The notes under the pieces were generated by a model. That model was not told the DNA's origin. It saw nothing but the letters and a program-made list of their open reading frames with translations, and ran no database searches. 45,596 nt of DNA from a virus, in the IMG/VR virus record IMGVR_UViG_3300035643_000024, positions 1-45,596 of that record, one strand, 5' to 3'. Positions 1,742-44,680 of the stretch are shown here, in pieces. The position numbers were made by a program, and so were the translations under genes. Numbering within the stretch: the first letter of the stretch is position 1; each line of letters starts with the position of its first letter.

Positions 1742-1798
1742 TTGGTGCTAATCTCACATCAAGCCCCAGATTAGCACCAAAAAACTATGGGGCTTGAT
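1742..1798 (-). ncRNA. Predicted H-type RNA pseudoknot at a gene end
   Basis: Two perfect inverted repeats interlock. Arms TTGGTGCTAATC (1742-1753) and GATTAGCACCAA (1769-1780) form a 12-bp stem; arms ATCAAGCCCCA (1758-1768) and TGGGGCTTGAT (1788-1798) form an 11-bp stem. Their order is A-B-A'-B', the topology of a pseudoknot (or of two mutually exclusive hairpins). One arm encodes the last residues (YQAP) of the secreted protein ending at 1785, so a translating ribosome would melt it. The element lies between that stop codon and the ribosome site of the next gene. There is no U tract after it. Confidence 0.7.
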
Positions 1799-2291
1799 AG
1801 TAAGTAGCGTACCAAGTCCATGTAGCAGTTGTAAGTCCCGATGGACTCACAAACGTAGTAGCTGTCCCAGGAGCAGCACTTTTAACGCATCCTTGTGCTG
1901 GAGTGGAAGGGCCAATCACCCACAATACACCAGAATCGGTATTGACCGCATTGGCGCTACTATATTTAACAGCAAAGCTATTGAAGTTAGTGGATGTGCT
2001 GACCACATTTGTAATTACATTAGGTCCACCAGCACTAGCACCAACTTCATAGGCCAATGAACATACGTAATTATATAACCCACCAGCGGGCGCAGGAATA
2101 GTTAATGTTGTTGCTGTATTAACTGCTGCTGTGGCTGCAATTGGCGTTTGGGAGTAAAATGGTGTTGCCATTTGTATTGGAACCACACCAGCGCCAGCAC
2201 CAGGAGCATTTTGTGCATGGATGCGCTTAAATCCCCAAGGCACCAATGCCGCAGTCAACAGCAAAACTAAAAGTAACCAATTTTTCTTCAT
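1785..2291 (-). CDS. Secreted beta-rich protein, Sec signal peptide (paralogue A)
   Basis: A 168-residue protein with a textbook Sec signal: MKKNWLLLVLLLTAALVPWG, then I-H-A before Q, a signal peptidase I site near residue 26. The mature part (QNAPGAGAG...) is rich in Ala, Thr, Ser, Val and Asn, has a YNYVCSL and a GCVKSA cysteine likely to pair in the periplasm, and ends ATWTWYATYYQAP. It is a tandem paralogue of the next gene upstream (2313-2819), sharing TTLTIPAPA, YNYVCSLA, STNFN, DSGV, GCVKSA, GTATTFVSP and the C-terminus. Start ATG 2291 has GGAGGAAATAA. A jelly-roll or Ig-like surface protein is plausible; the function is unknown. Confidence 0.85.
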   Translation of the reverse strand: MKKNWLLLVLLLTAALVPWGFKRIHAQNAPGAGAGVVPIQMATPFYSQTPIAATAAVNTATTLTIPAPAGGLYNYVCSLAYEVGASAGGPNVITNVVSTSTNFNSFAVKYSSANAVNTDSGVLWVIGPSTPAQGCVKSAAPGTATTFVSPSGLTTATWTWYATYYQAP

Positions 2292-2312
2292 TTATTTCCT
2301 CCATTAAAGGAT

Positions 2313-2819
2313 TTATGGTGCTTGGTAATAGGTCGCATACCAAGTAAAAGCTGCATTAGCAGTAGCAGCAGGTGAAACGAAAGTAGTAGCTGTACCGGCA
2401 ACAGCAGATTTCACGCACCCAGTAGCAGGGCTTGCAACAATATAAGTCATAACCCCACTGTCAAGATTTGCAGTGGCAGGTAAACTAAATTTGCTTGCCC
2501 AACCATTGAAGTTAGTGCTAGAAGTGGTAGCATTTGTAATTGCAGTCGAAGTAGCATTTTGGTTAGCTTCCAGCGCCAAAGAACAGACATAATTATATAC
2601 GTTGCCTACAGCGGGAGCAGGAATAGTGAGTGTGGTTTGAGTGTTTACCGCTGCGGTAGCACTAATAGGAATTGCTGCAAACCATGGAGTTGTAGCCTGA
2701 ACTGTGGTTGTGGCGCTTCCAGTGCCAGGTGCGTTTTGACCACTGACATAATTCGATAACACTGCTGAGCCAAATGCTACTGCCAGCACTAGCATCCCAG
2801 ACAGAATTAGTTTCTTCAT
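2313..2819 (-). CDS. Secreted beta-rich protein, Sec signal peptide (paralogue B)
   Basis: A 168-residue protein, the same length as its downstream paralogue. The start chosen is ATG 2819 (GGAGGAAAG upstream), giving MKKLILSGMLVLAVAFGSAV and cleavage near V-S-G before Q; a longer frame to 2849 would bury the signal. The mature protein starts QNAPGTGS and has a YNYVCSLA motif, GCVKSAVAGTATTFVSP and an identical end, WYATYYQAP. The two copies clearly arose by tandem duplication and then diverged in the first third and in the Asn/Thr-rich loops, while the core strands stayed alike. Likely exported to periplasm or surface; role unknown. Confidence 0.85.
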   Translation of the reverse strand: MKKLILSGMLVLAVAFGSAVLSNYVSGQNAPGTGSATTTVQATTPWFAAIPISATAAVNTQTTLTIPAPAVGNVYNYVCSLALEANQNATSTAITNATTSSTNFNGWASKFSLPATANLDSGVMTYIVASPATGCVKSAVAGTATTFVSPAATANAAFTWYATYYQAP

Positions 2820-2836
2820 CTTTCCTCCTTTTTTGT

Positions 2837-3433
2837 TTACATCACACAATTGTAGTTATGTACTGCATTACATTTCGGGTAAAGATTTCCAGCATAGGGA
2901 TTTGGAACAACACCAAGAGTAGTCAGGAAAAAATTATTTTGATTTGGTGTTATAGGTGACGCTGGCATAGTATGTACTACGTTACTGGTAATACCTGTGG
3001 ATGTGATAGCCATAGAATCTGGGGAGTTTAGACCTACTTCAAGATGTATTGTGTTGGTAGAAGATGCTGTACCTATTACTAAATCCCCGCTAGGTGCTAT
3101 CATGTAATAAGCCAATGGAATACTTACTGAACCATTACTGGTACTGTAATTGATGCTAACAATGTTATTACCAAAGGAAAACGAGTAACTGGCAATTTGT
3201 GTCCAAACAGGATTTGCAGCCGACAGACCTATGCAAGCATAATAAATCCCATGAACCCAATCATTAAAAATCCAATTAGGATTGCAGGGATTTAGGGAAG
3301 TTATGCCAGTCGGATTTGTCATACCAGGAATTACAACAGCATTAGGTGTGGTTGTTTGATAAATCACACCCTGCGCAAAACCTATATTACAAACAAGAAA
3401 GAACAAAGCAAGAAGATAAATAATCTTTTTCAT
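2837..3433 (-). CDS. Secreted protein with Sec signal peptide
   Basis: A 198-residue protein opening MKKIIYLLALFFLVCNIGFA before QG, a strong Sec signal with a likely signal peptidase I site after F-A; a cysteine in the core (LVCNIG) makes a lipobox reading conceivable but weak. The mature part carries NPCNPNWIFNDWVHGIYYAC and ends in a cysteine-bearing KCNAVHNYNCVM, so disulphides are likely. The Gly/Ser/Thr/Asn-rich middle (ATSTN, GDLVIGTAS) resembles phage tail and carbohydrate-facing beta proteins. It sits just downstream of the head protein at 3438-3830 and upstream of the two paralogues. I do not recognise a family. Confidence 0.8.
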   Translation of the reverse strand: MKKIIYLLALFFLVCNIGFAQGVIYQTTTPNAVVIPGMTNPTGITSLNPCNPNWIFNDWVHGIYYACIGLSAANPVWTQIASYSFSFGNNIVSINYSTSNGSVSIPLAYYMIAPSGDLVIGTASSTNTIHLEVGLNSPDSMAITSTGITSNVVHTMPASPITPNQNNFFLTTLGVVPNPYAGNLYPKCNAVHNYNCVM

Positions 3434-3437
3434 GTCG

Positions 3438-3830
3438 TTACCCCAAATTGAAGTACGCAGTGATTGTTACACTGTTTGTACGAGATCGCATTAACATTCG
3501 CACGAAGGGCTGCGAAGTCACGAACTCAAAATTGAATGTGAAATTAGTGCCATCAACGGCTGTTATGTTACCTGATGCGATTGTTTGATAGTACGTATCA
3601 GAATCTATTGAAGCAACTTGTATATCAATCTCAAACGCGCCAGGAGCACCGGAAAATTTTCCAAATGCAGCAACGGCACGTTGCAAATTGTAACGTTCTG
3701 GGGGAATCGCACATTGTTTAGATGCGGATACGCCACCATTGCCGGGAGTTGGAGTTTCTGCGTTCCAAACCTGTACTGGATTTCCCAACATTAATGCTGT
3801 AACTGCACCAACATTTGAATATTGTGGCAT
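3438..3830 (-). CDS. Probable capsid decoration or head-fibre protein
   Basis: A 130-residue beta-rich protein starting MPQYSNVGAVTALMLGNPVQ. Short Gly/Asn/Thr-rich proteins of this kind, encoded directly after the portal, are typical of minor head or decoration proteins; the C-terminal VRMLMRSRTNSVTITAYFNLG looks like paired beta strands. There is no signal peptide, unlike the three genes that follow. The start overlaps the portal stop by one base (shared A in TAATG form), so it is translated with the portal. The assignment is by position and composition only. Confidence 0.55.
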   Translation of the reverse strand: MPQYSNVGAVTALMLGNPVQVWNAETPTPGNGGVSASKQCAIPPERYNLQRAVAAFGKFSGAPGAFEIDIQVASIDSDTYYQTIASGNITAVDGTNFTFNFEFVTSQPFVRMLMRSRTNSVTITAYFNLG

Positions 3831-6094
3831 TATTGTGTAGCTCCTTGTGCCAAGTCACTTAACGGCGGAATTCCCGGCGGCGTTAAATTCTGTTGCAATG
3901 TCTGAGTTGTAATCATTTGCTCCAATGCTGCTCGATATGCTTTAACATTCATGTAACCAGCAGGATTTTCTTCCTTAGCCTCTAAACCACGCTCATCAGA
4001 TAACCAAACTTTTACAATCTCATCCTGCAATGCACCATCATCAACTCCAGGTTCTGGTTCAATGGATGGAATAGTTTGTCCACCAATTTCTATTGGTGCG
4101 CTCTGCAAAAGTTTATTAATATTTATAAGTGCTTTCAATCGCTGTGCATCTCCAGGTACATACAATTCAGGAAAACCAAGAGCTTGCACGATAATTTTAG
4201 AATTTTCAGGATGCGCTAGAACTTGCATGATCTCAGGTGTTGGAACTTGTAATAATTTTACAAGTAATGCCATCTTTGCGCCGGAACTTATCGGAAAGTT
4301 TGGGTCACATTCTGCGTGTGATGCGCCTACTTTGCTTAATTTGTCCCAATTTGCTGTGATTGTTCTGTACCCACTACCATCTTTTTGAGTCATGGATTCA
4401 TTATATTTGAACGTCCTGAGTTCGTCTGCATGTTTATCAACCGAGAGAACGTTCAAATCAATCCATGTATCCTTCAAATGTTCAAACATAATTGATAACC
4501 TGGACAATGCTCTTTGTCCAGATTCAATATATTCACCTAAAGTTCGTGAACTACCTTCGGATGGACCACCGTAAATTGATGGAAAATCACCAGTAATAAA
4601 TTGTGCCTCTTCATCAATGCGGTCTTGAAAAACCTCAACTTCCTTGGATAACGTTGCCATTTGCTGTTGATGAAAACCCGCATCCAAATCTTTCCCCGGC
4701 GGAGCTTTCGCGGGTGTTATAAATCCAGGTGCAGCAGTTTGTTGTCCAAATGTGTCGAAATCCAGATATTCTGTATCAGCGAAGGTCGCGGGAATTGCAT
4801 AATCAATAGTCTCCACCGTAAGATTGCCAACCTGATTTTTGCAATCTTGTAATGGAATTAAAGTTTGCCCCGGCGGTGTCGTATGTAAAAATGGACTCAC
4901 GCGACATTTGCGAATTACCCAAGAATCGTCAATTCCATCTTCGTATGCATCCACAATTTTGTTATTGAATATCGTTACATGCAAGCCAGATGGAAACTTT
5001 CGCTTTAGGTATTCAACAATTGCCATCTTTTCATCATCTGATCTGCCAGCAATCTTTTCTAATTGCCAAGGGCGAAACCAGCAACGCTTTCCTGCTGCAA
5101 GATTCGTATCTTCCGTTGCGCCTAGCCATGATGTTGCATAAGTTGGTGCTGTGCGATACCAACGTTCACGGCTTCCAGTTGCGTCAGCAACAATATCATC
5201 ACGAAAATCTGGATAATCATTCCATGCCTTAGCAACGTTAATATCGAGATAATAAAATGCATATCCAGCTTCAGCTTGGGAGTGTATTTGCGTTGGAAGC
5301 TTTACTTCAATGGGTGATAAAATACGCCAAGTTTCTTTGGCACGGGGGAATACATCATTACCAACTTTTTCATGTATCTCCCGTTCTTCAACAGCACCAC
5401 CTTCCCCAATCAAACCACATTTGGGACATATTGGAGCTTGTTCTAATTCCTCGCCATCCCATGCTTCTGCAATAACTTCGTTGCAGGCTGGACAATTGTG
5501 TGGAGTTACCTGATGCGTTTTCAGTTCATACTTCGGTATTTGTATCTCGCCGTATTTTTTATCTCGATCAGAATACCGAAGAATACAAGCCATTCCCTGA
5601 TTGAAGAATCGGAATAAAATTTCCATTAACTTCAATTTAGCTTTGTTATGTTGTTGTATAATAAGACTAAGTTTTGTCTTGTGCTTCGCGGTAATTAAAT
5701 CAGAGGGATTATCTGAATTATCAGGGAAAAATTCTAACCAGGGAACCGATTGAGATAACGCAGCCACAATACTTTCGCCATGTGCTGTGTATATATTGAA
5801 GACATAATCGTATAATGGGCCAAAATCGGCACGACCTTCTTCCTCCCCGGTATCCATTCCCACCGACAAACCGCCGGGACCAATAGAAGCCCACTCACCA
5901 ATGTTATCAGCCCAAAAAATATTTTGAATAGATTCCCAATAACAGTCATTACGCCGCCAAGTTGCAAGTTGGTAGCTTCTAACGTATTCATCTTCGATTT
6001 CACAGGTTTTCACCAAGTCGAGGACAGAACTGCAAATACTGTCTTCATCAAAACCTTTTGGCGGATTTTTGAAAAACTTTGGTTTATCCGGCAT
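3830..6094 (-). CDS. Portal protein with embedded zinc ribbon
   Basis: A 754-residue protein with the features of podovirus-type portals: a long acidic N-terminal helix region (DLVKTCEIEDEYVRSYQLATWRR), a QSVPWLEFFP segment, a central long-helix region and a Gln-rich C-terminus (TTQTLQQNLTPPGIPPL). Length and position beside the terminase block fit P22-like portals of about 700-750 residues. Portals form the twelve-fold ring through which DNA enters and leaves. Unusual: residues 201-226 hold CPAC and CPKC pairs 18 residues apart, a zinc ribbon, in an insert (HNCPACNEVIAEAW ... PICPKCGLIGEGG) between wing strands. Downstream of the 50-residue zinc-motif gene, which overlaps its start by 11 bases. 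Confidence 0.85.
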   Translation of the reverse strand: MPDKPKFFKNPPKGFDEDSICSSVLDLVKTCEIEDEYVRSYQLATWRRNDCYWESIQNIFWADNIGEWASIGPGGLSVGMDTGEEEGRADFGPLYDYVFNIYTAHGESIVAALSQSVPWLEFFPDNSDNPSDLITAKHKTKLSLIIQQHNKAKLKLMEILFRFFNQGMACILRYSDRDKKYGEIQIPKYELKTHQVTPHNCPACNEVIAEAWDGEELEQAPICPKCGLIGEGGAVEEREIHEKVGNDVFPRAKETWRILSPIEVKLPTQIHSQAEAGYAFYYLDINVAKAWNDYPDFRDDIVADATGSRERWYRTAPTYATSWLGATEDTNLAAGKRCWFRPWQLEKIAGRSDDEKMAIVEYLKRKFPSGLHVTIFNNKIVDAYEDGIDDSWVIRKCRVSPFLHTTPPGQTLIPLQDCKNQVGNLTVETIDYAIPATFADTEYLDFDTFGQQTAAPGFITPAKAPPGKDLDAGFHQQQMATLSKEVEVFQDRIDEEAQFITGDFPSIYGGPSEGSSRTLGEYIESGQRALSRLSIMFEHLKDTWIDLNVLSVDKHADELRTFKYNESMTQKDGSGYRTITANWDKLSKVGASHAECDPNFPISSGAKMALLVKLLQVPTPEIMQVLAHPENSKIIVQALGFPELYVPGDAQRLKALININKLLQSAPIEIGGQTIPSIEPEPGVDDGALQDEIVKVWLSDERGLEAKEENPAGYMNVKAYRAALEQMITTQTLQQNLTPPGIPPLSDLAQGATQ

Positions 6095-7280: not shown

Positions 7281-7708
7281 GTTGTAGGTTCTCTCTTTGT
7301 TTGTTCTTCCACAACTTCTTGACCTGCTTTTTGCGCTTTGGCCTTTTCCTGCTCCTCTAGTTTCTTTTTCCAATATTCCTGAATTGCTCTTGTTTGTATT
7401 GCAATTCTGCGAGACATTGCTCTACCGAGTTCCTGGGCTGTCATTCCACGTTTAATAGGATTCGGAGCTTGCTGTCCATTACCACCCGATTGGGAAATTA
7501 CACCCAATCGTTTCATGTATATTTCTTCGGTCTTTTCACCGCGTGTGCGCTCATACGAAATCGTACTTTGCAAGAACTCTATTTGAGATTTCAGTGCAAA
7601 ATTTTCCTTTTCAAGTAAACTTATCTTTTCCATCTGATATGAAATGTCAGATTGTAGTTTACGTGACCGGAGTAACGTGGTAATTATATCTTTGATTACG
7701 CGAACCAT
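7277..7708 (-). CDS. Coiled-coil protein overlapping the terminase end
   Basis: The start chosen is ATG 7708, preceded by GGAG at a good distance, giving 143 residues: MVRVIKDIITTLLRSRKLQ, then a long coiled coil (YQMEKISLLEKENFALKSQI), a Gly/Gln linker and a second charged helix (YWKKKLEEQEKAKAQKAGQE). It overlaps the last 50 bases of terL. No enzymatic motif. A scaffold-like, terminase-partner or lysis accessory role are all possible; the gene order places it first in the membrane-protein block. Confidence 0.6.
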   Translation of the reverse strand: MVRVIKDIITTLLRSRKLQSDISYQMEKISLLEKENFALKSQIEFLQSTISYERTRGEKTEEIYMKRLGVISQSGGNGQQAPNPIKRGMTAQELGRAMSRRIAIQTRAIQEYWKKKLEEQEKAKAQKAGQEVVEEQTKREPTT

Positions 7709-9299
7709 GAAATCTCCGCACCGGCAAATTCCGTTTACGCTGAAGTTCGCGTAAACGGCGTGCCTGTTGTGCAAGATAATTAAAGTCTTTTGTTTTTTCA
7801 AACTGCTGAAGAATCTTTGCTTCTTCTGTGATGCGTTGATCCTCAAAACGCACTTCGGTTAAAAGTCTTTGCACTTCCTTTAGAAAATAGCGAACACCGT
7901 CATATGAATCGTCTCCATTAAATTCTTTTACATCTTCACGATTTCCATGACCAATGGGATTGTAAATACAACGGGGAATGGTATCAATGAGGACTGGACA
8001 AGTCTCGAAAATCTGTAACTTCGGGAGATTTGTTTCTGGCTCTGGCGGGGTGAAAGATGTAAGGTAGTCATGGTATGCGTCCAAACCATTCCAACGTAAC
8101 AAATACTGCGCATATTCATCATCATAATCCTCAACTTCAGGGACTATACGTTCAATTGGTTTCCATCGTAGATATTCTTGTAATGTGCTTTTACCACCAA
8201 TTCTATCATTGTTTGCAGTATGTAAGAACTTATCAAATCCAAGTGGTTTGAGTGCATTGTAAATTTGGTCAAATTTCGTAAGCGGTTCACCCTGTTCCTG
8301 TTTCGTTGCTGGATCAACCACAATTCCGCGAATGTTAGATTCATTTCTCAATCTTCCATAGATTTCTGACATTGCTTCTGATGTGAGTTTTTGCTTTTCC
8401 GCATATTCCCACACTGCATAAACGCAACCAGTAGGAGCAAGGCGGCCAAATAGAGCATAAAAATAAGCGCGAAAACCCCAATCCAAAGCCAACACACCAG
8501 GATAATAATTGGGTAATCGAATTGGCTTAATAACATGGAGTGCATTTTCAGGTTCACCAGGGAGTCTTACCTTACGGAAAGTTGTAAATACCTGACCTTC
8601 AAAACTACTCCACGAACCAAATTTCTTTGCCTGTCTTTCATGTTCTGGAAGTAAATCTAATGATGCCTCATATTCAAGTAACTTTTCACGCGGAACTTTA
8701 GTATTATCTGTATATAATGCTGGAATAAAAATGCGAAGTTTACCGGAAAGCTTATCTTTAATTATAGTTTGTGGTGTAATTTCTTCAATGCGCCAACGTT
8801 TCTTAACCCAATCATGGCCTTCATTGCCAGGATTTGACCCTGCACGTGAGAATGCCGGTAAATCTGAAACGCTAGACCTGATTCTTGAGCCAATAAGATA
8901 TAAATATTGCGATTCCGTGAATGATGTTAATTCATCCCATCCAATGTATTGAAATTCATCGGTATCATATAAATATTTATCATCTTCATGTTCCATGTGG
9001 CCAGCAAATATAAGTGCACCAGATGGAAATTTCCAACGCTTCTTGTTATCATTCCACAATCCACCACAGGAACGATAATACGGGTCCATTCTCGGAATGA
9101 TTTCACGTTCTAATTCAGGAGTTGTCCTGCGTAACAAAAGACCTTTGAAGCGGGGATGATTGTGAAAACCACGAAGAATGGGGAGTAAACCTAAAACTTC
9201 TGTCTTACCACCGAAGGCACCGCCACCGTAGAAGCCCTCGAAGATTTTATCTGGAAGGGCTAAGAACTTTTCTTGCTTCGCATTTGGCGACCAGTCCAC
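7659..9299 (-). CDS. terL: Terminase large subunit
   Basis: A 546-residue packaging motor with an N-terminal ATPase and C-terminal nuclease. Residues 25-33 give a Walker A, GGGAFGGKT; around 113-124 FQYIGWDELTSF is the Walker B with the catalytic Asp-Glu; SNPGNEGHDW is the coupling region seen in Terminase_6-type proteins. The nuclease half begins GVLALDWGFRAYFYALFG with its metal-binding Asp, followed by GIVVDPATK (second Asp). TerL cuts concatemeric DNA and pumps it through the portal. Starts with GTG at 9297-9299; an upstream TAA in frame blocks a longer protein. The start MDWSPNAKQEKFLALP is usual for the family. Confidence 0.95.
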   Translation of the reverse strand: MDWSPNAKQEKFLALPDKIFEGFYGGGAFGGKTEVLGLLPILRGFHNHPRFKGLLLRRTTPELEREIIPRMDPYYRSCGGLWNDNKKRWKFPSGALIFAGHMEHEDDKYLYDTDEFQYIGWDELTSFTESQYLYLIGSRIRSSVSDLPAFSRAGSNPGNEGHDWVKKRWRIEEITPQTIIKDKLSGKLRIFIPALYTDNTKVPREKLLEYEASLDLLPEHERQAKKFGSWSSFEGQVFTTFRKVRLPGEPENALHVIKPIRLPNYYPGVLALDWGFRAYFYALFGRLAPTGCVYAVWEYAEKQKLTSEAMSEIYGRLRNESNIRGIVVDPATKQEQGEPLTKFDQIYNALKPLGFDKFLHTANNDRIGGKSTLQEYLRWKPIERIVPEVEDYDDEYAQYLLRWNGLDAYHDYLTSFTPPEPETNLPKLQIFETCPVLIDTIPRCIYNPIGHGNREDVKEFNGDDSYDGVRYFLKEVQRLLTEVRFEDQRITEEAKILQQFEKTKDFNYLAQQARRLRELQRKRNLPVRRFHGSRNQRYNYHVTPVT

Positions 9300-9348: not shown

Positions 9349-9672
9349 TCAGTATCCGTGAGGAACCTCTATATTGTAAGTTGTGCTATGTCGAAGTCCC
9401 TCAAATAGTCTATATCTCACATCAAAGGATTCAAGCATTTCTTTTTGTTTGGGGTGGAGTTCAATATTTATCAAATAAATTTGATTTCTCGGGCAGTTCA
9501 AATCTAAATTGGCTACCATCCCCCATAATTTAGCAGTACCACCAAACGGATTATTACGGATGAAAAAATACTTCTTCGCATTTGTTACAACAACTTCAGC
9601 AAGTGTCGGTGCTACAATCGCGCCAGCAGTAAGTATTCCGAGTTTCTTCAAAAAGTTACGACGATACATCAA
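9349..9672 (-). CDS. Small protein with Tat (twin-arginine) signal
   Basis: A 107-residue protein, MMYRRNFLKKLGILTAGAIV..., whose N-terminus matches the Tat consensus (R-R-x-F-L-K), a moderately hydrophobic core and a likely cut after T-L-A near residue 24. The rest (FFIRNNPFGGTAKLWGMVAN, INIELHPKQKEMLESFD) is short and matches no family I know. Tat substrates are folded before export, often with a cofactor; a phage-coded one is rare. It lies directly upstream of terL and overlaps the preceding gene by 4 bases (ATGA type). If the signal is real, the product reaches the periplasm. Confidence 0.72.
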   Translation of the reverse strand: MMYRRNFLKKLGILTAGAIVAPTLAEVVVTNAKKYFFIRNNPFGGTAKLWGMVANLDLNCPRNQIYLINIELHPKQKEMLESFDVRYRLFEGLRHSTTYNIEVPHGY

Positions 9673-17953: not shown

Positions 17954-18186
17954 ACGCATCTGAAACTTTTATCAAAGTAACGGCAATAATCAATGACAGA
18001 AAAGCGTCAAAATATGAGAAGTATATCCGCGCCGATCAAATATTTGGTGCAGCCGCACCAAATGAAGATATGTTAGCACTTGGCGCGGCCGCGTGTATCG
18101 AGACGTTTCAAGGCACATTTGCTGTTGTGGAAACATTGGATGACGTGATGGATGCGCTCAGTAAAATTAAGGTTCATGTGGAGTGA
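17950..18186 (+). CDS. Hypothetical 78-residue protein
   Basis: MNASETFIKVTAIINDRKAS..., mostly helical with an Ala-rich centre (DQIFGAAAPNEDMLALGAAA). ATGA coupled to the membrane protein before. No family recognised. Confidence 0.62.
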   Translation: MNASETFIKVTAIINDRKASKYEKYIRADQIFGAAAPNEDMLALGAAACIETFQGTFAVVETLDDVMDALSKIKVHVE

Positions 18187-18188
18187 TT

Positions 18189-18299
18189 ATGCATTATATA
18201 CATGAGCACATTTGGCAAATTATCGTTATTGCATTAGCGCTAAGATGCGTTTACCTTGATGGTAAAATTGATAGATTGGAGAGAATTTGCAAACGTTAA
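18189..18299 (+). CDS. Very small single-TM protein
   Basis: 36 residues, MHYIHEHIWQIIVIALALRC..., with one hydrophobic helix and a basic end (DRLERICKR). It lacks a strong ribosome site but lies two bases after a stop and overlaps the nuclease gene by 13 bases. Likely real by context, not certain. Confidence 0.48.
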   Translation: MHYIHEHIWQIIVIALALRCVYLDGKIDRLERICKR

Positions 18300-19177
18300 T
18301 CATAGATAGCCAAATACTCAACACTTACCAGGAATGTGGTTGTAAAGCGCACTATATATTCAATCGTAACATTAGGCCACCAATCAAAGAAGAAAGTTTT
18401 GATAAGGGTGGCCTATTGCACGATATGTTGCAAGGCCATTATACACAACTAAAAGAACATTACAAAACTTCACACATCATTTCACCGGAGAAATATCAAC
18501 AGATAGTGCTACAATCTATTGAGGTTGGTCAACGTAGTTTAATGACGCGCGATTTGGATACGGAGGATGGATTAAATGTGATTGAAAGCTATCGGCAGTA
18601 TGCCACATTTCGTCAATCTGAAACATGGATTCCATTGTTTGTTGAAGAAGTAGCGACAAAGGAACTATATATTGACTCAGAGATTAGAATCCTAATGGCT
18701 GGTATTATAGATTTAGTTTATAAAACTGATTGGGATGCAGAAGATAATTCGATTTGCGATCACAAAAGCGAATCCCGCGCATCAGATCCAATATCGCGCA
18801 CCAATCAATTTTTGAAATATGCATGGATGTTTGATGCACGTAGTTTAGTCGTAAATAAAGTTGGATTTCAGAAATCTCTAAAACCTGCCGAGAAATTCAG
18901 AAGATATACGTTGGCATTTCCAAAGGCAATCATAGAAGAGTGGCGCAGAGATACAATTAAATGGGCATTACGTCTTTATAATTCTCTCCAAAATCTTGAC
19001 GAAATGAAAGACGATCGTACAACCGCATCTTGCATCGGAAAGTATGGCAAACCTTGTGGTTTGTTAGGAATTTGTGAAACTGAACCGAATTTGCGTGAAT
19101 GGAAAATTCAAAGTAATTATATTGTGGGAGAACCTTGGGACATTACGAAGAGGCTTCGTACATGGGAGAGAACATGA
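18287..19177 (+). CDS. PD-(D/E)XK nuclease, Cas4/AddB-like with Fe-S type cysteines
   Basis: A 296-residue nuclease. Motif I is GGLLHDML (His 45), motif II GIIDLV (Asp 142), motif III CDHKSES (Asp 158, Lys 160), followed by the Q-x3-Y motif NQFLKYAW (Gln 174, Tyr 178). An N-terminal Cys pair (residues 17, 19) and three C-terminal cysteines (249, 257, 263 in ASCIGKYGKPCGLLGIC) match the spacing used by Cas4 and AddB to hold a 4Fe-4S cluster. Such enzymes resect DNA ends in recombination-dependent replication. TTG start with GGAG at 18278. Grouped with the Sak4-like and SSB-like genes downstream. Confidence 0.88.
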   Translation: MQTLIIDSQILNTYQECGCKAHYIFNRNIRPPIKEESFDKGGLLHDMLQGHYTQLKEHYKTSHIISPEKYQQIVLQSIEVGQRSLMTRDLDTEDGLNVIESYRQYATFRQSETWIPLFVEEVATKELYIDSEIRILMAGIIDLVYKTDWDAEDNSICDHKSESRASDPISRTNQFLKYAWMFDARSLVVNKVGFQKSLKPAEKFRRYTLAFPKAIIEEWRRDTIKWALRLYNSLQNLDEMKDDRTTASCIGKYGKPCGLLGICETEPNLREWKIQSNYIVGEPWDITKRLRTWERT

Positions 19178-19326: not shown

Positions 19327-19529
19327 ATCCACAATATCTTGGGGATGGCGTATATATTAGCGATGGAGCTAGGTGGAATAATGATCGCGCTGTGTATTTA
19401 ACAACTGGACACCATTTAGTTGAACAAGCAGATAATGTTATTTATTTAGAGACTGACGTGTTGGACGCATTAATTAATGTTCTTAGAAAAGAAAACCGAA
19501 TAAAAGGGGAGACAACAAATGGCAATTGA
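19323..19529 (+). CDS. Hypothetical 68-residue protein
   Basis: MNPQYLGDGVYISDGARWNN..., with beta-strand character (RAVYLTTGHHLVEQADNVIY) then a helix. This short pattern (YLGDGVY ... IYL) is seen in many phage early-region proteins of unknown function. ATGA overlap with the gene before. Confidence 0.7.
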   Translation: MNPQYLGDGVYISDGARWNNDRAVYLTTGHHLVEQADNVIYLETDVLDALINVLRKENRIKGETTNGN

Positions 19530-19755: not shown

Positions 19756-19757
19756 GT

Positions 19758-33311: not shown

Positions 33312-35753
33312 TTAATGTCCAAATAGACTAAACATTAATCCATCACCCGAAGTAACACTGGAAAATGTTAAAGTGCAAGATGTGGTTGACCAAGTACTTT
33401 GCACACCACTGACCTTTGCAGTAACATCTGTTCCAAAGCACATCCATGAATTTGGTACTGTAGTTCCTGGGCTTATTGTAAGTGTACTTGCTCCAGTTGT
33501 TCCCCCACAGTTTACCTGTCCGCTCCATGAACCACCAGCTTGTGATGAAAGTGATGCTGTGGCACAGGCTCCGGTTCCGGTAAGCGTAGCAGCAGCACCT
33601 CCCGATACAATTGAACTGGAAACTATTTGAGTTTGTTGGCCGATAAAATCTGTCATCGCTACGGGACTCGCCGGGGTTCCGCCTTCATCTCCAAGTGATG
33701 TTACACTGAATGACATCAGATAGTATGGAAGTAGCGCAGTTCCATTGTAGGTAGCAACTGGAATATATCCTGCGGGCGCTTTGTAGTATTGATTACCAAG
33801 GGAGACAATCCGAAGCGTTGCAGGTGCACTGTCATAGTATTCTTCCTGTATATACGCCTGTTGAGTACCTGTCGCTCCAAACTGGTTCCCAATCATAACA
33901 AGTTGACCCGCCCAGCAAATTACTGAACCCACCATTGGGCCTGTACCACAGTCAGTAGGCGCACTTGGGGGAGTTGCTTGCCAACTGTTATTAATGAGAG
34001 TTAAAGTTCCTTGTGCGCTGCCACTTCCGCCATTGGCTACGAAAATGTGAGTAGTGGTATTTACAGACTCGCTCTCACAGTTTTCGACGAGGACAGGGGC
34101 CTGTTGAGCCCAAATATCAGCCTTTTGGATTTGACTAAAATCGTCGCCCTTAAAACTTATCCCTCCACCTGTCCCATTCAAGTAAGCGCCATAAACGAGG
34201 TAGCTGAAATCGTTGTAGTCAATCCAGACATTCTTGGTACTTCCTGCACATATTCCATAAATTCCAGAATGTGCTGTACCATCTGCACCGTAAAATAAAT
34301 TATGGTCAATATAAATCTCTGATGTTTGTCCACAACCCCATGTATTTGAAACTACGTTCCCGATTTTGATGCCATCTGATCCTGAACCGGAAAGATTGAT
34401 CGTGGAAATATGATGTATATTTCCACCACTTGATGAACTGCCACCGATTGTAGCACCGCTTGAATGCAATTTTGAAAAACTTGCTGTTATATTACCAGAG
34501 CCTACGGCAGTTACCAACACCATTTCAAAACTAGCTCCAGAATCCACACGTAACCAGTATCCAGCAGCCATATTCCCTGTTGAACCTACCGTGACAGTCT
34601 GCGAGCCAGTCGTTGTAATATTTTGACTTAAAGTTCCATTAGTGTCAGAATTTTCCACAAGCCAAATGCCAGCATTAGCAGTTTTTTCTGTATCAAATGT
34701 AAGATGGTCAATTTCATAACTATTCAGATTCCAGGTTAATAACATTGGTACGCCACTGGAACCATTCCATTTTATGACGCTTCCAGCAATTATACCAGGG
34801 CGGGGCGCTGCTCCCATAATGTGAATTGAACAACCAGGAGAACCAGGCAGTACAAGTGGGGAAGAAATCAAATATATTCCAACTGGAAAAAATATAGTAA
34901 CTGAGTTAGAACCACCACAGTTTGAGCCATCAGTACCCACTATATTATTTATAAGAAGTTGAATTGCTGCTGTAACATCTGTTATGCCATTTCCTGTAAC
35001 ATTATAAGCCTGTACGTTGTAGTATTGCCCACCCGCATCTATAACCTTTGATACATTATTAGTATTGTTTACGGTCCATGGTCTTTGATCTGTTAAGCTC
35101 GTTATGGAACTTGTTCCAGTCGTGACTGTGGCAATTGGTATCTGCCCAGAAGTAAATGTTGTTGTACTTACTGTTGGAACATAAGTACTTGCTGCTAAGT
35201 ACATATAATTAGTAGTGCTTGCAGTTAATGATAGGCTACCGCCAGAATATGTTACAAGAGTGCTACCCAAAAGTAAATTAAACCCTGCTGATATATTGAC
35301 ATTTAACCCACTGCCAGCACTTGATTGATAACCAGCCACAATTGATCCAGGTGGCAGAGTTTGATACAGCATGTTTGTAGTATTGCCATTACATATCACA
35401 GATGCTCTATTATATGTATTTACCGGACCAACACACCAATTTTCGGAGAATCCACCAGTACCACCAACTGTTTGCTGATAATTCACTGTATAAAATGCAT
35501 TTGGTGGATTTGCTACCAGCGTGGGTACTACGTTTACGCTGAAAGAACTCCCAGTGATTGTGAATTTCTGTTGCATCCCGCCGGGAATCGTGTAACCATC
35601 CGAGCTAATAAATGATGTTGATGGTGTTATTGTAGCTTGCCATGTACCATGTGTTCCCATTGGTCCGCTAAAATTGTTGTCAGTTATGGTTGCAGTGATC
35701 TGACCAGATGCGTTTACAGCCAGCAATAACATCATTAATATTAGTTTCTTCAT
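33312..35753 (-). CDS. Tailspike-like right-handed beta-helix protein with signal peptide
   Basis: Start chosen at ATG 35753 (GAGGTATT upstream), 813 residues. It opens MKKLILMMLLLAVNASG before Q, a Sec signal, very unusual for a virion protein. After beta repeats of unknown type it has the pectate-lyase-3 start (VIDAGGQYYNVQAYNVTGNG, then DVTAAIQLLINNIVG and SVTIFFPVGIYLISSPL), many short Asn/Gly/Ser turns of a beta-helix, and a C-terminal beta domain with cysteines. Such proteins cut or bind surface sugars. With export it would act in the periplasm or outside the cell, or be added to virions at the envelope. The longer frame to 35810 lacks a ribosome site. Confidence 0.8.
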   Translation of the reverse strand: MKKLILMMLLLAVNASGQITATITDNNFSGPMGTHGTWQATITPSTSFISSDGYTIPGGMQQKFTITGSSFSVNVVPTLVANPPNAFYTVNYQQTVGGTGGFSENWCVGPVNTYNRASVICNGNTTNMLYQTLPPGSIVAGYQSSAGSGLNVNISAGFNLLLGSTLVTYSGGSLSLTASTTNYMYLAASTYVPTVSTTTFTSGQIPIATVTTGTSSITSLTDQRPWTVNNTNNVSKVIDAGGQYYNVQAYNVTGNGITDVTAAIQLLINNIVGTDGSNCGGSNSVTIFFPVGIYLISSPLVLPGSPGCSIHIMGAAPRPGIIAGSVIKWNGSSGVPMLLTWNLNSYEIDHLTFDTEKTANAGIWLVENSDTNGTLSQNITTTGSQTVTVGSTGNMAAGYWLRVDSGASFEMVLVTAVGSGNITASFSKLHSSGATIGGSSSSGGNIHHISTINLSGSGSDGIKIGNVVSNTWGCGQTSEIYIDHNLFYGADGTAHSGIYGICAGSTKNVWIDYNDFSYLVYGAYLNGTGGGISFKGDDFSQIQKADIWAQQAPVLVENCESESVNTTTHIFVANGGSGSAQGTLTLINNSWQATPPSAPTDCGTGPMVGSVICWAGQLVMIGNQFGATGTQQAYIQEEYYDSAPATLRIVSLGNQYYKAPAGYIPVATYNGTALLPYYLMSFSVTSLGDEGGTPASPVAMTDFIGQQTQIVSSSIVSGGAAATLTGTGACATASLSSQAGGSWSGQVNCGGTTGASTLTISPGTTVPNSWMCFGTDVTAKVSGVQSTWSTTSCTLTFSSVTSGDGLMFSLFGH

Positions 35754-35760: not shown

Positions 35761-36297
35761 CTAAACGAGATAGAAATTATACCCATCACAAAACAACACA
35801 CCACCTTCATCCTGATTCAAATTCCACGAAGTTCGAAGATTCACATATTGTTGATTTGGAATAACAGGTGGTGTTATAACTACTGGATAAGACCCAAGAT
35901 TTAGAATCCAGCACATAAAATTGCCACCCAAAATACTTGCTGAAGATAACGCAACTACAACATTTCCACTATTGTTGTCTGATACTATTAAATTGGCTTG
36001 ATCTGCTAGTGTTATTAAATAATATCCACCAGCACCAGAACCGCTGTAACCAATTCTATGAACAAATTTTCTTTGCCCACCACCACCACCAGAGCCTTTC
36101 TTAGAACTGCCAGCTATTACCGCAGTCACTCCTCCGACTGCTGCGGAGGTACTTACCGCAGCCTGTTGCTGTTGTAATTCCTCAATAGATTTAACAAGCT
36201 CATCAGTTCCACGGCGCAAATCATCCAATACAAACCACGTTGGATGATCTTTCAACGGTGCAATTAATTTTGCGACGCGCGATTTCCAGTTTACGAT
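35761..36297 (-). CDS. Tail or fibre protein with apparent AUC start
   Basis: The frame is open to 36297, where GGAGG (36304-36308) lies seven bases before ATC, giving a natural start (I/M)VNWKSRVAKLIAPLKD. A TTG at 36255 has no ribosome site, so AUC may be the start. Protein of 178 residues: helix to residue 70, a Gly/Ser/Lys linker (GSSKKGSGGGGGQRKF), then a beta domain (GGYYLITLADQANLIVSDNN ... NFMCWILNLGSYPVVITPP) like tail-fibre C-terminal modules. It overlaps the upstream nozzle gene by 7 bases. Confidence 0.68.
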   Translation of the reverse strand: MVNWKSRVAKLIAPLKDHPTWFVLDDLRRGTDELVKSIEELQQQQAAVSTSAAVGGVTAVIAGSSKKGSGGGGGQRKFVHRIGYSGSGAGGYYLITLADQANLIVSDNNSGNVVVALSSASILGGNFMCWILNLGSYPVVITPPVIPNQQYVNLRTSWNLNQDEGGVLFCDGYNFYLV

Positions 36298-38939
36298 GGC
36301 CTAACCTCCGAGTACGGATTGCCGTAAAATACAGCTTTACTCATGCTGAAATATGAACTTGGTGTTGTAGGGTCATTTGTAAAATTATAATAGCATTTCT
36401 CGTTCCTGAAGTTTGTCTTAATTGTATATTCCATACCTGGAGTTGGTGACAATATCGGTGTTACAGCAGGTACATAGGAACTTTGTTGATCCTCACTATA
36501 AAGTGTTATATTGAGATCACCTATACCAACGCATTTTGTGCGAATGCCAAAGAAATCAGAAATACCGCCGGCATTAAAGTCTATACCGGCGGTTATAACA
36601 GACTGTACAATTGGTGATGTTACACCAGGACTGACATAATCTGTTTGCAAATTAGTATTAAATGTTACTATGATTCCAGTGCTTAGTAACGTACAAAGTA
36701 CAGCACCTGTGCCAGATGCGTTGTCGAAAATCCTTACATTATTATGATATGTCCATAAGTCCCATTTGATTGATTCCCAATCTATACCTTCATTGAAATC
36801 GCCAACCAATGCCATATTATACATTTGACTATTCGCATCAAATCCCGTGACGTGGATGCGTTTATTTATCACATCTATACAGATACGAATGCCAGCGAAA
36901 CTGGTGATGCTGTTCCATAAATCTTGAACTTTCCATGATATTGGCGGATTTACAACCTGACCGTTAAATATATACAATCCAGATGGATCAGCGAAGGCAC
37001 TTAAATCTTGTTGTGTACTACTTTCAGCGACTGGTGTTGCAGTGCTTATGCCGCGAAATGATGTTCCGAGACTCTGATCTACAGGAGTCGCGGTGTCCCA
37101 ATTTACCGGGTCTTGTCCGTTATCAATTACTGAAAATATACCTTTAGACTTAAATACAAACAGGGTTCCAGCACGGTCAATTAATGTGTTTGTAACAGGA
37201 TAGCCGTCGTCTTTGTTTACAATGTATGTCATTAAAGTTTGATTAAATGTTTCAGGTGTGCCAGCGCCAGAACAATTTAAGATCGAATTGTTCGGATATG
37301 GCATACCCCATAAAATTAAACGTGCATTGTAGAGGTTTATTCCTTGGCCAGATGGGATAGACGCCAAAATGTCAAATTGATCGTCAGCAGAATCAACCAA
37401 ATCTGTTTCAAAGAAATCCAATGTTGCAGTTGTTGTAGCATTGTCATTTATAACTCCACCATTCGTGCCGGGAACGAAGAAAAATGGTTCTGTAGTTCCA
37501 GGCATAGTTATAATAATCTGCCTGTTTACTGTGCCAGATGGCCCAATGGGAACATTAGTTAATTCCATCTGATGACTACCAGCTGCATTGAATGTAATTG
37601 CTACATTTGGAGAATCAGATGGAGGTGTAATGAAACCTGTATCCGTTTCATAAACTATATTAATTTGGTATTGACCGGCAGGAACATTGCCAGTGATTGT
37701 ACTTTGCGTATATATTGTGATGGTTACATAGAAGATATCCGCCGTTGCACCATTTCCGGGTGCGCCAGTACAATCCAACGTGATGTTAACACCAAATGTA
37801 CTGGAATTGACAACAGCAGGTGTAAGACCATTGCCCAATCCCCAAGTGTCCGTAGCCGAACCATATACTTCGTATGTATTACCAGACCAAGGATTTGGAT
37901 TGTAATAATTGTTTCCACCAGCGGTTAATGAAATATTTGAATCATAAGCTGCGCTAGTTCCAGCACCTTGCTGCCTGTGAATTGTAACAACCACACCTTC
38001 GACAACATCAGTCGAAGGAATACCAAAATTAAATCCTGTCAAAGTTAGTGTATTGGATGAGCCACCTGCTGACATGGCACAAGTAGCTGGATTGCCCGCA
38101 TCATTCTGCAATCCTGCCATATTTGACCAAGATGCATTTGAGCCTGTTTGTGCTTCTATTGAACACGCATTTGGTCCGTAAACAGCAGTTGCGATTACTT
38201 GTGCATTTCCATCCACGGCAATCATTGCAGAAGCCGCAGTGGGTGGCATTCCACCGCATTGTTTTATGGTAGGATTGTTGTTGTTAATCCCTGTTCCAAC
38301 ACCAAAAACCTGGAATGTGTCACCAACCCAAATGCCATCAGTTTCAGCAATAGCTTGAGGATTGACAATTGTAAATGTCCCTGCACCCAACGCAGTTATG
38401 GGTGCTGGACCAATATTATTACCAGGATTGGTCATTTCTTCAATTGTAATTTGTTGACCAACTTGCAGTGCAGGGCCATATACCAAATTATACGAATATG
38501 TGGCGTTATTTCCTGCTACGGACACGCCAGTAATGGCAACAGTTGACTGCGGATAATACAACATCAATAAGTTGCCTATCGGACCTGCTGCGTTGCAGGG
38601 AACTATGAACAGCGCTGAATAGAAGTTTACAGAGAAGAAATCTGTTGCGCCCGGCACATTATACAGCACTGTGCCACTGTTATTGAGGTAGAAATTTCCG
38701 TTGGAATCTATAGAAAGTAATGACGCGGGGTAAGTTCCGGTGACCCACTCAGCAACATCACCAACAGCACGGCCAATGTTATAATATAAGCTACTACCAG
38801 GACGAATGCCAAAACGACCTCTACGATAAGCAATATTTTGGCAATACCAGAAATGGTCCAATGGAACTTCGCTCATTGAACCATTCCTGTATAACCCGTT
38901 CCACGAATTTATCGCCCGTTTCTGGTATCCGGCAAGCAT
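36291..38939 (-). CDS. Tail nozzle or tubular-B-like protein
   Basis: 882 residues, MLAGYQKRAINSWNGLYRNG, then HFWYCQNIAYRRGRFGIRPG. That opening, and later NLYNARLILWGMPYPNNSIL, GTLFVFKSKGIFSVIDNGQD and WKVQDLWNSI, match the beta-propeller type proteins (P22 gp10, T7 gp12) that close the short tail. An inserted Ig-like, Thr/Asn-rich part (about 200-470; GQYQINIVYETDTGFITPPS) makes it longer than usual. Directly next to adaptor and secreted protein genes. Confidence 0.78.
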   Translation of the reverse strand: MLAGYQKRAINSWNGLYRNGSMSEVPLDHFWYCQNIAYRRGRFGIRPGSSLYYNIGRAVGDVAEWVTGTYPASLLSIDSNGNFYLNNSGTVLYNVPGATDFFSVNFYSALFIVPCNAAGPIGNLLMLYYPQSTVAITGVSVAGNNATYSYNLVYGPALQVGQQITIEEMTNPGNNIGPAPITALGAGTFTIVNPQAIAETDGIWVGDTFQVFGVGTGINNNNPTIKQCGGMPPTAASAMIAVDGNAQVIATAVYGPNACSIEAQTGSNASWSNMAGLQNDAGNPATCAMSAGGSSNTLTLTGFNFGIPSTDVVEGVVVTIHRQQGAGTSAAYDSNISLTAGGNNYYNPNPWSGNTYEVYGSATDTWGLGNGLTPAVVNSSTFGVNITLDCTGAPGNGATADIFYVTITIYTQSTITGNVPAGQYQINIVYETDTGFITPPSDSPNVAITFNAAGSHQMELTNVPIGPSGTVNRQIIITMPGTTEPFFFVPGTNGGVINDNATTTATLDFFETDLVDSADDQFDILASIPSGQGINLYNARLILWGMPYPNNSILNCSGAGTPETFNQTLMTYIVNKDDGYPVTNTLIDRAGTLFVFKSKGIFSVIDNGQDPVNWDTATPVDQSLGTSFRGISTATPVAESSTQQDLSAFADPSGLYIFNGQVVNPPISWKVQDLWNSITSFAGIRICIDVINKRIHVTGFDANSQMYNMALVGDFNEGIDWESIKWDLWTYHNNVRIFDNASGTGAVLCTLLSTGIIVTFNTNLQTDYVSPGVTSPIVQSVITAGIDFNAGGISDFFGIRTKCVGIGDLNITLYSEDQQSSYVPAVTPILSPTPGMEYTIKTNFRNEKCYYNFTNDPTTPSSYFSMSKAVFYGNPYSEVRPS

Positions 38940-38942: not shown

Positions 38943-39650
38943 CTACCATAGAGTACAATTACTACCCTTCAAAACCACAATTACATCAGCGGCAGTTGAT
39001 TGTTTTACCATCAACTGTATGGTTGCGGCAGACGAACCAGACGGTTGTTGCACAGTGAAATTTAGATTTACATAATTAGCAGTTGATACAGTTGGAGTTC
39101 CAGTCACAATTGCAGTTGCGGTAGTAGTGTTAAGTCCAGAGATAAATCCGGTTGCAATTGCCGGGGAACTGCCAGTACCAGCCGTGGACATGATACCAAA
39201 GCCGTCAATTGATGTGGGCGCAACACTATCTTGAATGCCAAAGCTATCACTTACCTGTGTGGCCTGTGTCCATGCCAAATTGCAGTTTATTGGCACAATT
39301 TGTGCAACACCAGCAGGGATTGTAAAACTCAACCCTGTAATTGCTTGCAGATTCGATGAACTGCTCGAATCTGTAAAACTGGCCGTCAATGTCGGATAAA
39401 CACCAGCAAAAGTATTTGCCCAAGTGCTGCCGAGTTGACCCAAGGCAGCGGTATTTACCCATAATTGGTTGCGGCTGGAATCAAAAATAAGAGTTCCACC
39501 ATAACCGTTTCCTGACGGCGCATCAGCTTGTACTAATGTTTTGTAGTGTCCAGCAAAGCTCTCGTATGGCGGTTGAATTGAACTATGTAATCCGATCCAG
39601 AATGTAAATATTGCAAGTGTGGCAAGAACTGCTAAAGTGACTTTCCTCAT
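38943..39650 (-). CDS. Secreted beta protein with signal anchor or Sec signal
   Basis: Start chosen at ATG 39650 (GGGAGGTAAC upstream), 235 residues: MRKVTLAVLATLAIFTFWIG then HSSIQPPYESF. The N-terminal helix is a Sec signal or an uncleaved anchor; no clear A-x-A follows. The rest is a Thr/Ser/Ala-rich beta domain (SFTIPAGVAQIVPINCNLAW, IGLN-TT repeats) that ends LKGSNCTLW; two cysteines may pair. A general layout like the paralogues at 1785 and 2313 (signal, IPAG/IPAP strand, Cys, C-terminal aromatic), but no clear homology. It lies between tail connector and nozzle genes. Confidence 0.75.
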   Translation of the reverse strand: MRKVTLAVLATLAIFTFWIGLHSSIQPPYESFAGHYKTLVQADAPSGNGYGGTLIFDSSRNQLWVNTAALGQLGSTWANTFAGVYPTLTASFTDSSSSSNLQAITGLSFTIPAGVAQIVPINCNLAWTQATQVSDSFGIQDSVAPTSIDGFGIMSTAGTGSSPAIATGFISGLNTTTATAIVTGTPTVSTANYVNLNFTVQQPSGSSAATIQLMVKQSTAADVIVVLKGSNCTLW

Positions 39651-42124: not shown

Positions 42125-43423
42125 TTAATACCCGCTTGGAATTGCTAGTGCATAAATATAACTGCACGCAGCAGGATTCCTCACAAAAACGTTAAAACTC
42201 GCCACTAGGTAAAAGATGCGAGATGCGAGCAAACCACCTGAAGTTCCATAAAGTGGAAATATTTTATTTTTATCCACTTCATAGAATCCAGGTTTGTGAA
42301 GTTCCGCGCGGCCCCACACATCTAAATCTACAAAATCAATGCGAGTTCTGTCCCAGTTGTAGGATAACTTTAATGGTGCTCCAGCTAAACGCATCGCATC
42401 AGAGAAATACAAGTCAAGAGGTTCCTCATGTGCTGATTTCACAATTTGAACCACTCCATAACCCATTTCTTCATAAGCTGATGCCTGCGCTGGATGCGTC
42501 CATGCTTGCAACTTTTTAGATCGTGCCTCAAGACCAATTCTATCACCAATCAAATTCATTGCAAGACGTGGTTGTGGATGTGCTAATGGCTGATTTGCAC
42601 CATTTACCGAATTTGCTACAACCTCTGGAATAGTTGCACGGTTGAAGCCGAGCCATGTGCCAACAGTGCTGGAATTGTGGTGGTAATAAACTCCAAAAAG
42701 ACTCATCGGTGGCGTTGTGGCAGATGCGCCGGATACCACAACTTTATCACCAGCCGTAACACCATTGATTTGTCCGGTCGCAACTTGGAATGTAAATGTG
42801 GGAATGTTCAAGTATGTGATAGCAGCCTCATTTTGTGCAGTCGGTGGTTGTTGTGTGCCGGTTCTTTGTGTAAGATATGTATTGGCCCAAACTGCAATAT
42901 CACAGCCAAAACGAAGTAAATGGGCACGGAAACCATCGGAGTTCATTACGTAAGTATCATATCCTGTTGGTGAATTTTGTGTCCAAGAACCGACAGTGCC
43001 AAGAGTCCCATTTCCATCACCACATGAAATAATCTTATCAGTGTTGGAACGGAACATTCCCATTGATTTGGCCATTAGATCACGGAAGTTGTTAATAACT
43101 GCTTTCCTTTGGTCGTCCGTGACCCACTCTGAACGAGTTGTCCATTCAATTGCATGTTCCAAATCCACAGTATTAATTACTGCCTTGTCATAGACCGGCC
43201 CACCACCGCGTCCCATGTCGCCACCGTCAGAGTTCCATTGTCTAGTTTTCCCACCGGGACGTAAATCCAAGACGATACGCAAATCACGTCCATTTACAAC
43301 CTCTACTGGTCGTTTTTCGATTTGCGAAAAAAATGTATTGTCTCTTTCGTACAATGTTGCGACCACAGGAGTTATTCGTTCAATTTCCGCGTTAATTACA
43401 GCAGCTTCTGTCATCGTTGCCAT
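42125..43423 (-). CDS. Major capsid protein
   Basis: 432 residues with TTAGGAGAACAAT before ATG 43423. N-terminus MATMTEAAVINAEIERITPV; then VNGRDLRIVLDLRPGGKTRQ with a Gly-rich loop (DGGDMGRGGGPVYDK), TVDLEHAIEWTTRSEWVTDD, a long spine-helix-like region and C-terminal PLYGTSGGLLASRIFYLVAS. Length, composition and the place after scaffold fit an HK97-fold capsid protein. No obvious protease site; a scaffold gene precedes it. Confidence 0.85.
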   Translation of the reverse strand: MATMTEAAVINAEIERITPVVATLYERDNTFFSQIEKRPVEVVNGRDLRIVLDLRPGGKTRQWNSDGGDMGRGGGPVYDKAVINTVDLEHAIEWTTRSEWVTDDQRKAVINNFRDLMAKSMGMFRSNTDKIISCGDGNGTLGTVGSWTQNSPTGYDTYVMNSDGFRAHLLRFGCDIAVWANTYLTQRTGTQQPPTAQNEAAITYLNIPTFTFQVATGQINGVTAGDKVVVSGASATTPPMSLFGVYYHHNSSTVGTWLGFNRATIPEVVANSVNGANQPLAHPQPRLAMNLIGDRIGLEARSKKLQAWTHPAQASAYEEMGYGVVQIVKSAHEEPLDLYFSDAMRLAGAPLKLSYNWDRTRIDFVDLDVWGRAELHKPGFYEVDKNKIFPLYGTSGGLLASRIFYLVASFNVFVRNPAACSYIYALAIPSGY

Positions 43424-43432: not shown

Positions 43433-44680
43433 CTAAGATTTTCCGTCAAGAAGCTCTCTATCGGAAACTTTACTGTAATCCACTTTCCCTGGAGATGTTC
43501 TTGATCTAGTTCCTCCACCACCACCGCCGACTGTATTCTTACGCTTACCTTTTTCTATATCCTCCGGTGTTGGCTCAGAACGTTTCGTTTTAGTTTTATC
43601 CCGCATTCGTTTTACTAATGCAGGAATTTCACTTCTAGCGCGTGACAGGAACGCGGAAATTATATCTGTCTTGGATTGACCGCTTAAAGAACTTTTCGCA
43701 GCACGACCCCACAATCCTTTCATTCGGGTCATGTGTGCATTGTCAGCCTGCAATGCCTCTTTCACTTGCTGGCAAACTTTGTCAGCAATGTATTCGGAAT
43801 CAAATGCGCTTAATTCATTTTCTGGATCAATTTTAGCAACTTCAGCTTGAACTAACTTTGTTAATCCAGCACCAACTTGAGCTTGCGTATCCAATTCATA
43901 TTCGCGTGCTCTTTCCGCCCAGAAACCATCAATCCTTTCTTGTTCAGGATTTCGTGTATCAGATGCGCGTTCAGTTCTTTCAAATTTTGGCAAAGATATT
44001 GCTTTTTTGCCAGAGGCGTAGTCCACATCACCAAAAATAAATTTTGCTATCCATGCAGCGGCGGCTTGAAGATTTTTGTTGTCAGAACTGATACCAGCCT
44101 GATATGCGCCTTTGATAACACCATCAATTATTGGCGCTGTGATTGCGTTGTACATATCCCTGTCAGCTTTCAACAACGCCGGCAGGAATGTAGAAACGTA
44201 ACCTTGGTAAATATTCTCGTCATTATCTTTCATCACAGTGAGAAACTCTGATGTGCCTTCGGGAGTTCCAGCACTTACCATTTCTTCAAGTCCACGGTAA
44301 TCATCTGCAAGCTGCCTTGCGGTTTGTGCATCTTCCACAGTATCGTAAAGTTCGGTTAATTCTCTTTCGCGCCCCATAGCTTCACGGACTTCAGGAAAAT
44401 CTTTGAAGAAATCTTTGTATTTTGCAGTGATTTTACTGAATGATGGTCTTGTATGTCCATTTGCAAGAACAACATCTGGCTCAATTATTGCTTCTTCCTC
44501 TGGTCTTTTACCTTCTTTTTCTTCTTCTTCCTTTTCAGGTGGAACTTCCTCCTCAATTTTTGGTGGAACTTCTTCAACTTTTACTGGAATTTCTTCACGG
44601 TTCAAATCCGCAAAATCAAGGTCTTGTCCAGTATCTTCACCAATTACGGTAGTGGATGGACTACCAATGTTTGCACCCAT
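43433..44680 (-). CDS. Capsid scaffolding protein
   Basis: 415 residues. Acidic, Pro/Glu-rich N-terminus (VPPKIEEEVPPEKEEEEKEG), a helical centre and a basic C-terminal end (RMRDKTKTKRSEPTPEDIEK, then a Gly run and SRTSPGK) that would bind the capsid inner face. It lies directly upstream of the capsid gene, nine bases away, as scaffolds do. GGAGGAGATAAA precedes ATG 44680. No protease motif seen. Confidence 0.8.
   Translation of the reverse strand: MGANIGSPSTTVIGEDTGQDLDFADLNREEIPVKVEEVPPKIEEEVPPEKEEEEKEGKRPEEEAIIEPDVVLANGHTRPSFSKITAKYKDFFKDFPEVREAMGRERELTELYDTVEDAQTARQLADDYRGLEEMVSAGTPEGTSEFLTVMKDNDENIYQGYVSTFLPALLKADRDMYNAITAPIIDGVIKGAYQAGISSDNKNLQAAAAWIAKFIFGDVDYASGKKAISLPKFERTERASDTRNPEQERIDGFWAERAREYELDTQAQVGAGLTKLVQAEVAKIDPENELSAFDSEYIADKVCQQVKEALQADNAHMTRMKGLWGRAAKSSLSGQSKTDIISAFLSRARSEIPALVKRMRDKTKTKRSEPTPEDIEKGKRKNTVGGGGGGTRSRTSPGKVDYSKVSDRELLDGKS

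Follow-up and report, generated by a model that had tools for sequence, protein, structure and literature searches.

The window, by which we mean the whole analysed stretch of 45,596 bases, has a 127-base end repeat, and the junction of its ends is spanned by a large ATP-grasp-like reading frame; together these features indicate that the genome is complete and either circular or circularly permuted. The virus is a soil-type podovirus of bacteria. The replication genes run rightward and encode a uracil-DNA glycosylase fused to a family-A DNA polymerase (23665–26139, with the glycosylase domain at the N-terminus), an SNF2 helicase and a dCTP deaminase-like protein. The late genes run leftward, and the original prediction was correct in calling them a structural operon: they include the terminase large subunit (7659..9299, minus strand; PHROG 979, E 2.4e-30), portal (3830..6094, minus; aligned to L009 and L011, 80 relatives), scaffold (43433..44680, minus; 78 relatives), coat (42125..43423, minus; 80 relatives) and a stabilisation/tail protein (36291..38939, minus; 51 relatives). 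The ATP-grasp-like frame (44692–45596, continuing beyond the end repeat) comprises 446 residues with a weak match to the GARS C-domain, and is flanked by an HNH-like gene and the scaffold gene, an unusual content for a virion operon.

The terminase is distantly related to those of HMO-2011-type phages. Within the stretch searched, the phage collection gave no close relative at the DNA level, and the portal used as a query had no match in the viral-contig or phage collections. Two genome scans for prophage relatives gave only two matches; as these are two small contigs belonging to MAGs from different phyla, we claim no host; the ribosome-binding sites would argue against a typical Bacteroidota host.

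Leader-bearing genes of the window

Six minus-strand genes, all confirmed as reading frames, were examined for export signals with a rule-based caller made for this analysis. A type I Sec signal has a positive n-region, a hydrophobic core and small residues at −3/−1. Three of them are consecutive and are separated from the portal by a leaderless 130-aa gene (3438..3830, minus). The gene at 2837..3433 encodes 198 aa, with a leader at 3374–3433, predicted cleavage FA|Q and four cysteines in the mature part. The gene at 1785..2291 (168 aa, two cysteines; leader at about 2214–2291, mature protein from QNAPG) is a tandem paralogue of that at 2313..2819 (leader at about 2739–2819, two cysteines in the mature part). 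The mature parts of this pair are 59% identical and their homology starts exactly at the predicted +1 Gln of QNAPG, the leaders themselves having diverged, which would favour cleavage there indirectly. A fourth gene, directly after a 164-aa fibre-like gene, encodes a tailspike-like protein of 813 aa (33312..35753) with predicted cleavage at NA|SGQ or SG|Q and 13 cysteines in the mature part; the stretch from residue 234 to 301 shows a weak likeness to tail spike protein 2 of a Salmonella phage (36% over 68 residues, E about 0.01), and the protein has no Pfam match.

These four genes show all three features of a type I Sec signal and are convincing, whereas the fifth predicted Sec-type start, at 38943..39650, is the weakest. 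This 235-aa protein with two cysteines and a beta-type virion-like domain, encoded on the other side of the stabilisation/tail gene from the tailspike-like protein, has the charge and hydrophobic core of a probable Sec leader, but could instead carry an N-terminal anchor because a clean cleavage site is absent. The predicted Tat-type start upstream of the terminase (MYRRNFLKK...) scores 17.8 bits against the curated model TIGR01409, above its cut-off of 16.7; we correct the gene to 9349..9669, starting at ATG, with an alternative TTG start possible at 9672. The other start codons are supported by GGAGG-type sites (1785, 2313 and 38943 genes) or by the position of the ATG 4 and 7 bases past the upstream gene (at 3433 and 35753, respectively).

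None of the six proteins has a Pfam enzyme, catalytic or lectin domain, and no lipobox with Cys at +1 is present in the window's leader genes. Most of the proteins are larger than small membrane proteins and rich in Thr, Ser and Gly, as fibre proteins are. The fold model of the 1785/2313 pair (AlphaFold) reaches a pLDDT of only 44. The 1785, 2837 and 38943 proteins have no match in the phage collection and the paralogue pair no relative in the viral-contig collection, which makes the four genes orphans with respect to the collections searched.

The density of leaders far exceeds that in control phages. At the strict threshold, five of the 47 reading frames of at least 80 aa pass the rule, and six of the same 47 pass at a looser threshold that admits the Tat gene; the same rule passes 8 of 973 frames in control phages and 0.04–0.08% of internal Met codons. 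Given the control-phage rate, the probability of five or more leader frames in the window is 4e-5.

Recurrence of leader genes in related phages

Searches with terminase and coat gave a set of relatives comprising L009–L012 and about 80 IMG/VR loci, with coats 43–51% identical. Leader genes occur in 21 of 75 non-redundant relatives, most having none, and no core gene bears a leader either in the relatives (0/503) or in a further set (0/301). The gap between portal and scaffold, where the three consecutive genes of the window are located, is usually empty in relatives; when it is filled, 8 of the 15 genes bear leaders. The difference from core genes gives a Fisher value of 8e-8, which overstates independence because all eight genes stem from three loci (L011, L090 and L098), and the slot statistics as a whole are based on few loci. 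L098 has four leader genes in a row, and L090 has three called ones with a fourth, collagen-like gene that has a hydrophobic start. Additional leader genes in relatives sit upstream of the terminase. Across 12 complete relatives and the window, leader genes are more frequent on the late strand (20/399) than on the early one (3/242; p = 0.014, or p = 0.08 with the window omitted), and in 18 of 28 cases the leader ATG overlaps or closely follows the upstream stop. Among 45 relatives of a distant branch, there are six Sec-rule matches (one really a lipoprotein), three lipoproteins, and the gap from portal to scaffold is free of leader genes; such scarcity indicates that the trait is patchy.

Homologues of the window's own leader proteins were not found in the relatives. 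The slot is kept and the proteins within it change, as a fast-changing accessory set. The expectation of signal peptides at matching positions in uncultured relatives is thus borne out for the slot, in related and in unrelated podoviruses, but not for the sequences, which are not conserved.

The leader itself behaves as a detachable element. Leader-bearing proteins of L095 and L011 match a leaderless protein of L009 from the first mature residues onward, and part of a 994-aa leader protein of L098 has a leaderless match in mycobacteriophage Halley, annotated there as a minor tail protein. The modelled domain shared by L095, L011 and L009 (pLDDT 74) resembles CBM32/F5-8C carbohydrate-binding domains, a phage cement protein and the exported protein XepA. 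Leaderless relatives had been named beforehand as evidence against export; their existence characterizes the leader as an add-on module on tail-fibre-like domains rather than a fixed part of them, and domains of fibre or decoration type occur in both states.

Leader genes in other podovirus lineages

The same slot is occupied in a phage whose core proteins and those of the window do not match in BLAST. In MW202554.1 (Podoviridae sp. ctLwi270) the portal is followed by four consecutive leader genes: two encode proteins of 847 aa and 195 aa, one a LamG lectin (PF13385, 8e-14) and one a GH28/pectate-lyase-like enzyme (3e-9). The enzyme is annotated as an endopolygalacturonase (UOF78514.1; L231:18594–20192), and a GTG 39 bases upstream of the annotated start, probably the true start of the gene, yields a full Sec leader. 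The tail-collar fibre of this phage (PF07484, 1.7e-23) has a hydrophobic, leader-like N-terminus with no positive charge. L017/L235, related to this phage, has three Sec-leader genes after the coat (L235:15664–16122, 18057–18398 and 19511–20425); a scan for a second portal lineage yielded only two loci. In the isolated acidobacterial podovirus Tunturi_3 the annotated fibres are leaderless. The same phage (PP885686.1) has a Tat-like protein (MNRRQLFKGAAALVAATVLPLPALA; L233:42137–42649) encoded outside the virion genes.

Cysteine content and other signs of export

Among cysteine-bearing mature leader proteins of the discovery set, 22 of 23 have an even number of cysteines, as against a background of 0.42–0.44. 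Cysteine parity played no part in choosing these proteins; the set includes a few homologous pairs, and lipoproteins and four doubtful rule matches (L097, L103, L126, L148) were left out of the count, although the relatives still show an even number in 19 of 25 when every rule match is counted. The excess is smaller in later sets (7 of 11). Cysteine density is 1.75 per 100 aa in mature leader proteins and 0.75 in structural accessory proteins, and 17 of 24 leader proteins have Gln at +1.

Export signals are also retained in strongly diverged families: the leader in a two-cysteine Sec family (L100, L111, L125, L143, L153, L156), and the lipobox in lipoprotein families of the relatives. Two conserved lipoprotein families (L096, L102, L110, L128, L151, L155; and L138, L140, L164) are located mostly upstream of the terminase and are possibly exclusion or lysis proteins. 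L094:2770–3420 encodes a PEP-CTERM protein, combining a Sec leader with an exosortase sorting signal, that is, host surface sorting, which points to an exosortase-bearing host. Tat-like N-termini occur upstream of the terminase in L103 (1067–1354; MDRRTF...) and L152 (397–738; MERRSFLK...) as well. In these two small proteins a stretch of 24–29 residues matches a phage coat protein loop (..GVPYHxSNAS..W.G..R), which is absent from the window's Tat gene.

Discussion

What could be the role of signal sequences in a virion operon? Leaders, late location, cysteine pattern and recurrence in phages are read from sequence; actual export, glycan target and benefit are our interpretation of them. The leader proteins are very probably exported in truth, and the original claim of an exported protein set stands, with its list of functions still hypothetical. 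The disulphide-type cysteines that it pointed out are reflected in the parity counts, and an adhesin, spike or enzyme character is likewise supported, with a catalytic domain only in the GH28 protein of MW202554.1. On balance, we find it somewhat probable that the variable accessory set of the late operon is exported to the cell surface or surroundings, where it binds or cuts glycans. The host Sec system, and Tat for one protein, would move the set over the inner membrane in late infection; the leader would be cut at A/G|Q, and disulphide bonds would be made once the proteins are out of the cytoplasm. Beta-rich and similar to adhesins, lectins and spikes, the mature proteins would remain on the surface of the infected cell or leave it, and bind or cut glycans of the envelope or matrix. 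The benefit might be aided spread of the progeny and prevention of re-adsorption to the dying cell and its debris.

The main rival is that fibres, spikes and decoration proteins acquire their fold and their disulphides in the periplasm and join the particles at lysis. Leader genes do have virion genes as neighbours, a leader is borne by the one long spike-like protein found in the window, the collar fibre of MW202554.1 starts with a leader-like stretch, and leader domains have leaderless counterparts with a predicted fold that also matches the cement protein. Tailed phage fibres, however, are assembled in the cytoplasm; those annotated in Tunturi_3 have no leader, the collar stretch of MW202554.1 lacks positive charge, and the PEP-CTERM protein and lipoproteins of relatives carry signals of the cell surface rather than the virion, so that we regard such late attachment as unlikely. 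A further reading, of slightly lower probability, is an extracellular completion of a tailed phage: receptor-binding and decoration proteins would pass through Sec, be oxidised to disulphides beyond the cytoplasm and cover the virions no earlier than lysis. The lectin- and enzyme-type relatives and the surface-sorting signals lead us to favour a putative action on the cell surface or matrix over later attachment to virions.

The genes might alternatively be cargo (morons), host genes for secreted proteins captured with their leaders at insertion-tolerant spots and serving no common strategy. Absence of homologues of the window's genes in relatives, turnover of contents between phages and the host-like appearance of the GH28, LamG and PEP-CTERM proteins are consistent with this, but tight translational coupling to the portal and other late genes, runs of consecutive leader genes, tail-fibre-like domains and use of the same slot in separate lineages make it quite improbable. 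The hydrophobic N-termini might also belong to ordinary virion proteins that are not exported and use them to bind membranes or in assembly. This has a precedent in P22 gp7, from which a host protease removes 20 N-terminal residues (database record note), and would suit the unclear cleavage site of 38943..39650; cleavage motifs with Gln at +1, even numbers of cysteines, the charge–hydrophobic–polar order, the Tat score and the conserved lipoboxes of relatives speak against it, and we consider it very unlikely. Least probable are spanin-like lysis proteins or Cor/Llp-like superinfection-exclusion proteins: the lipoprotein families that relatives encode upstream of the terminase could fit such a role, but the lipobox is confined to relatives and the window's proteins are for the most part too large and too fibre-like in composition.

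The preferred reading, export of an accessory set to act on the cell surface, has wider consequences. Recurrence of unrelated proteins in the same slot points to a little-known phage action on the cell surface or surroundings. If this is true, adhesins and glycan enzymes made by the phage would be set free from infected bacteria at lysis or before it, with consequences for re-adsorption, the breakdown of biofilm matrix and carbon in soil. A leader combined with even cysteines in late genes is, moreover, a sequence test applicable to all viral genomes.

Tail spikes are not known to carry a Sec leader; the likeness of tailed-phage spikes and fibres to the leader sets consists in the weak spike match of 33312..35753 and the collar domain of MW202554.1. 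Puniceispirillum phage HMO-2011 and podoviruses of its type have a terminase homologous to that of the window, and their terminase, portal, coat and tail genes follow one another in a similar order, but the rule finds no leader in the stretch of HMO-2011 examined. Like the window, MW202554.1 has consecutive Sec-leader genes in the slot after the portal, in its case for lectin, enzyme and adhesin; its terminase, portal and coat are different, and the product names of its record do not mention leaders. The GH32 enzyme of Bacillus phage SP10 is thought to act on extracellular matrix polysaccharide, but GH32 enzymes of this kind have no signal peptide (PMC4595243), unlike the canonical leaders of the window. 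XepA of PBSX and YomS of SPbeta are late phage proteins that were found past the membrane but not in particles (PMC6834076); their beta-sandwich is similar to the L095/L011/L009 domain, a likeness of fold only and in relatives, and they are single proteins of a lytic cassette, in contrast to the leader-bearing set among the virion genes of the window. The papers searched contain nothing that matches signal peptides on virion operons. Exported phage proteins are known singly, but no description was found in those papers of a virion operon with several genes for probably exported, disulphide-rich proteins, recurring as unrelated proteins in the same slot of different podovirus lineages.
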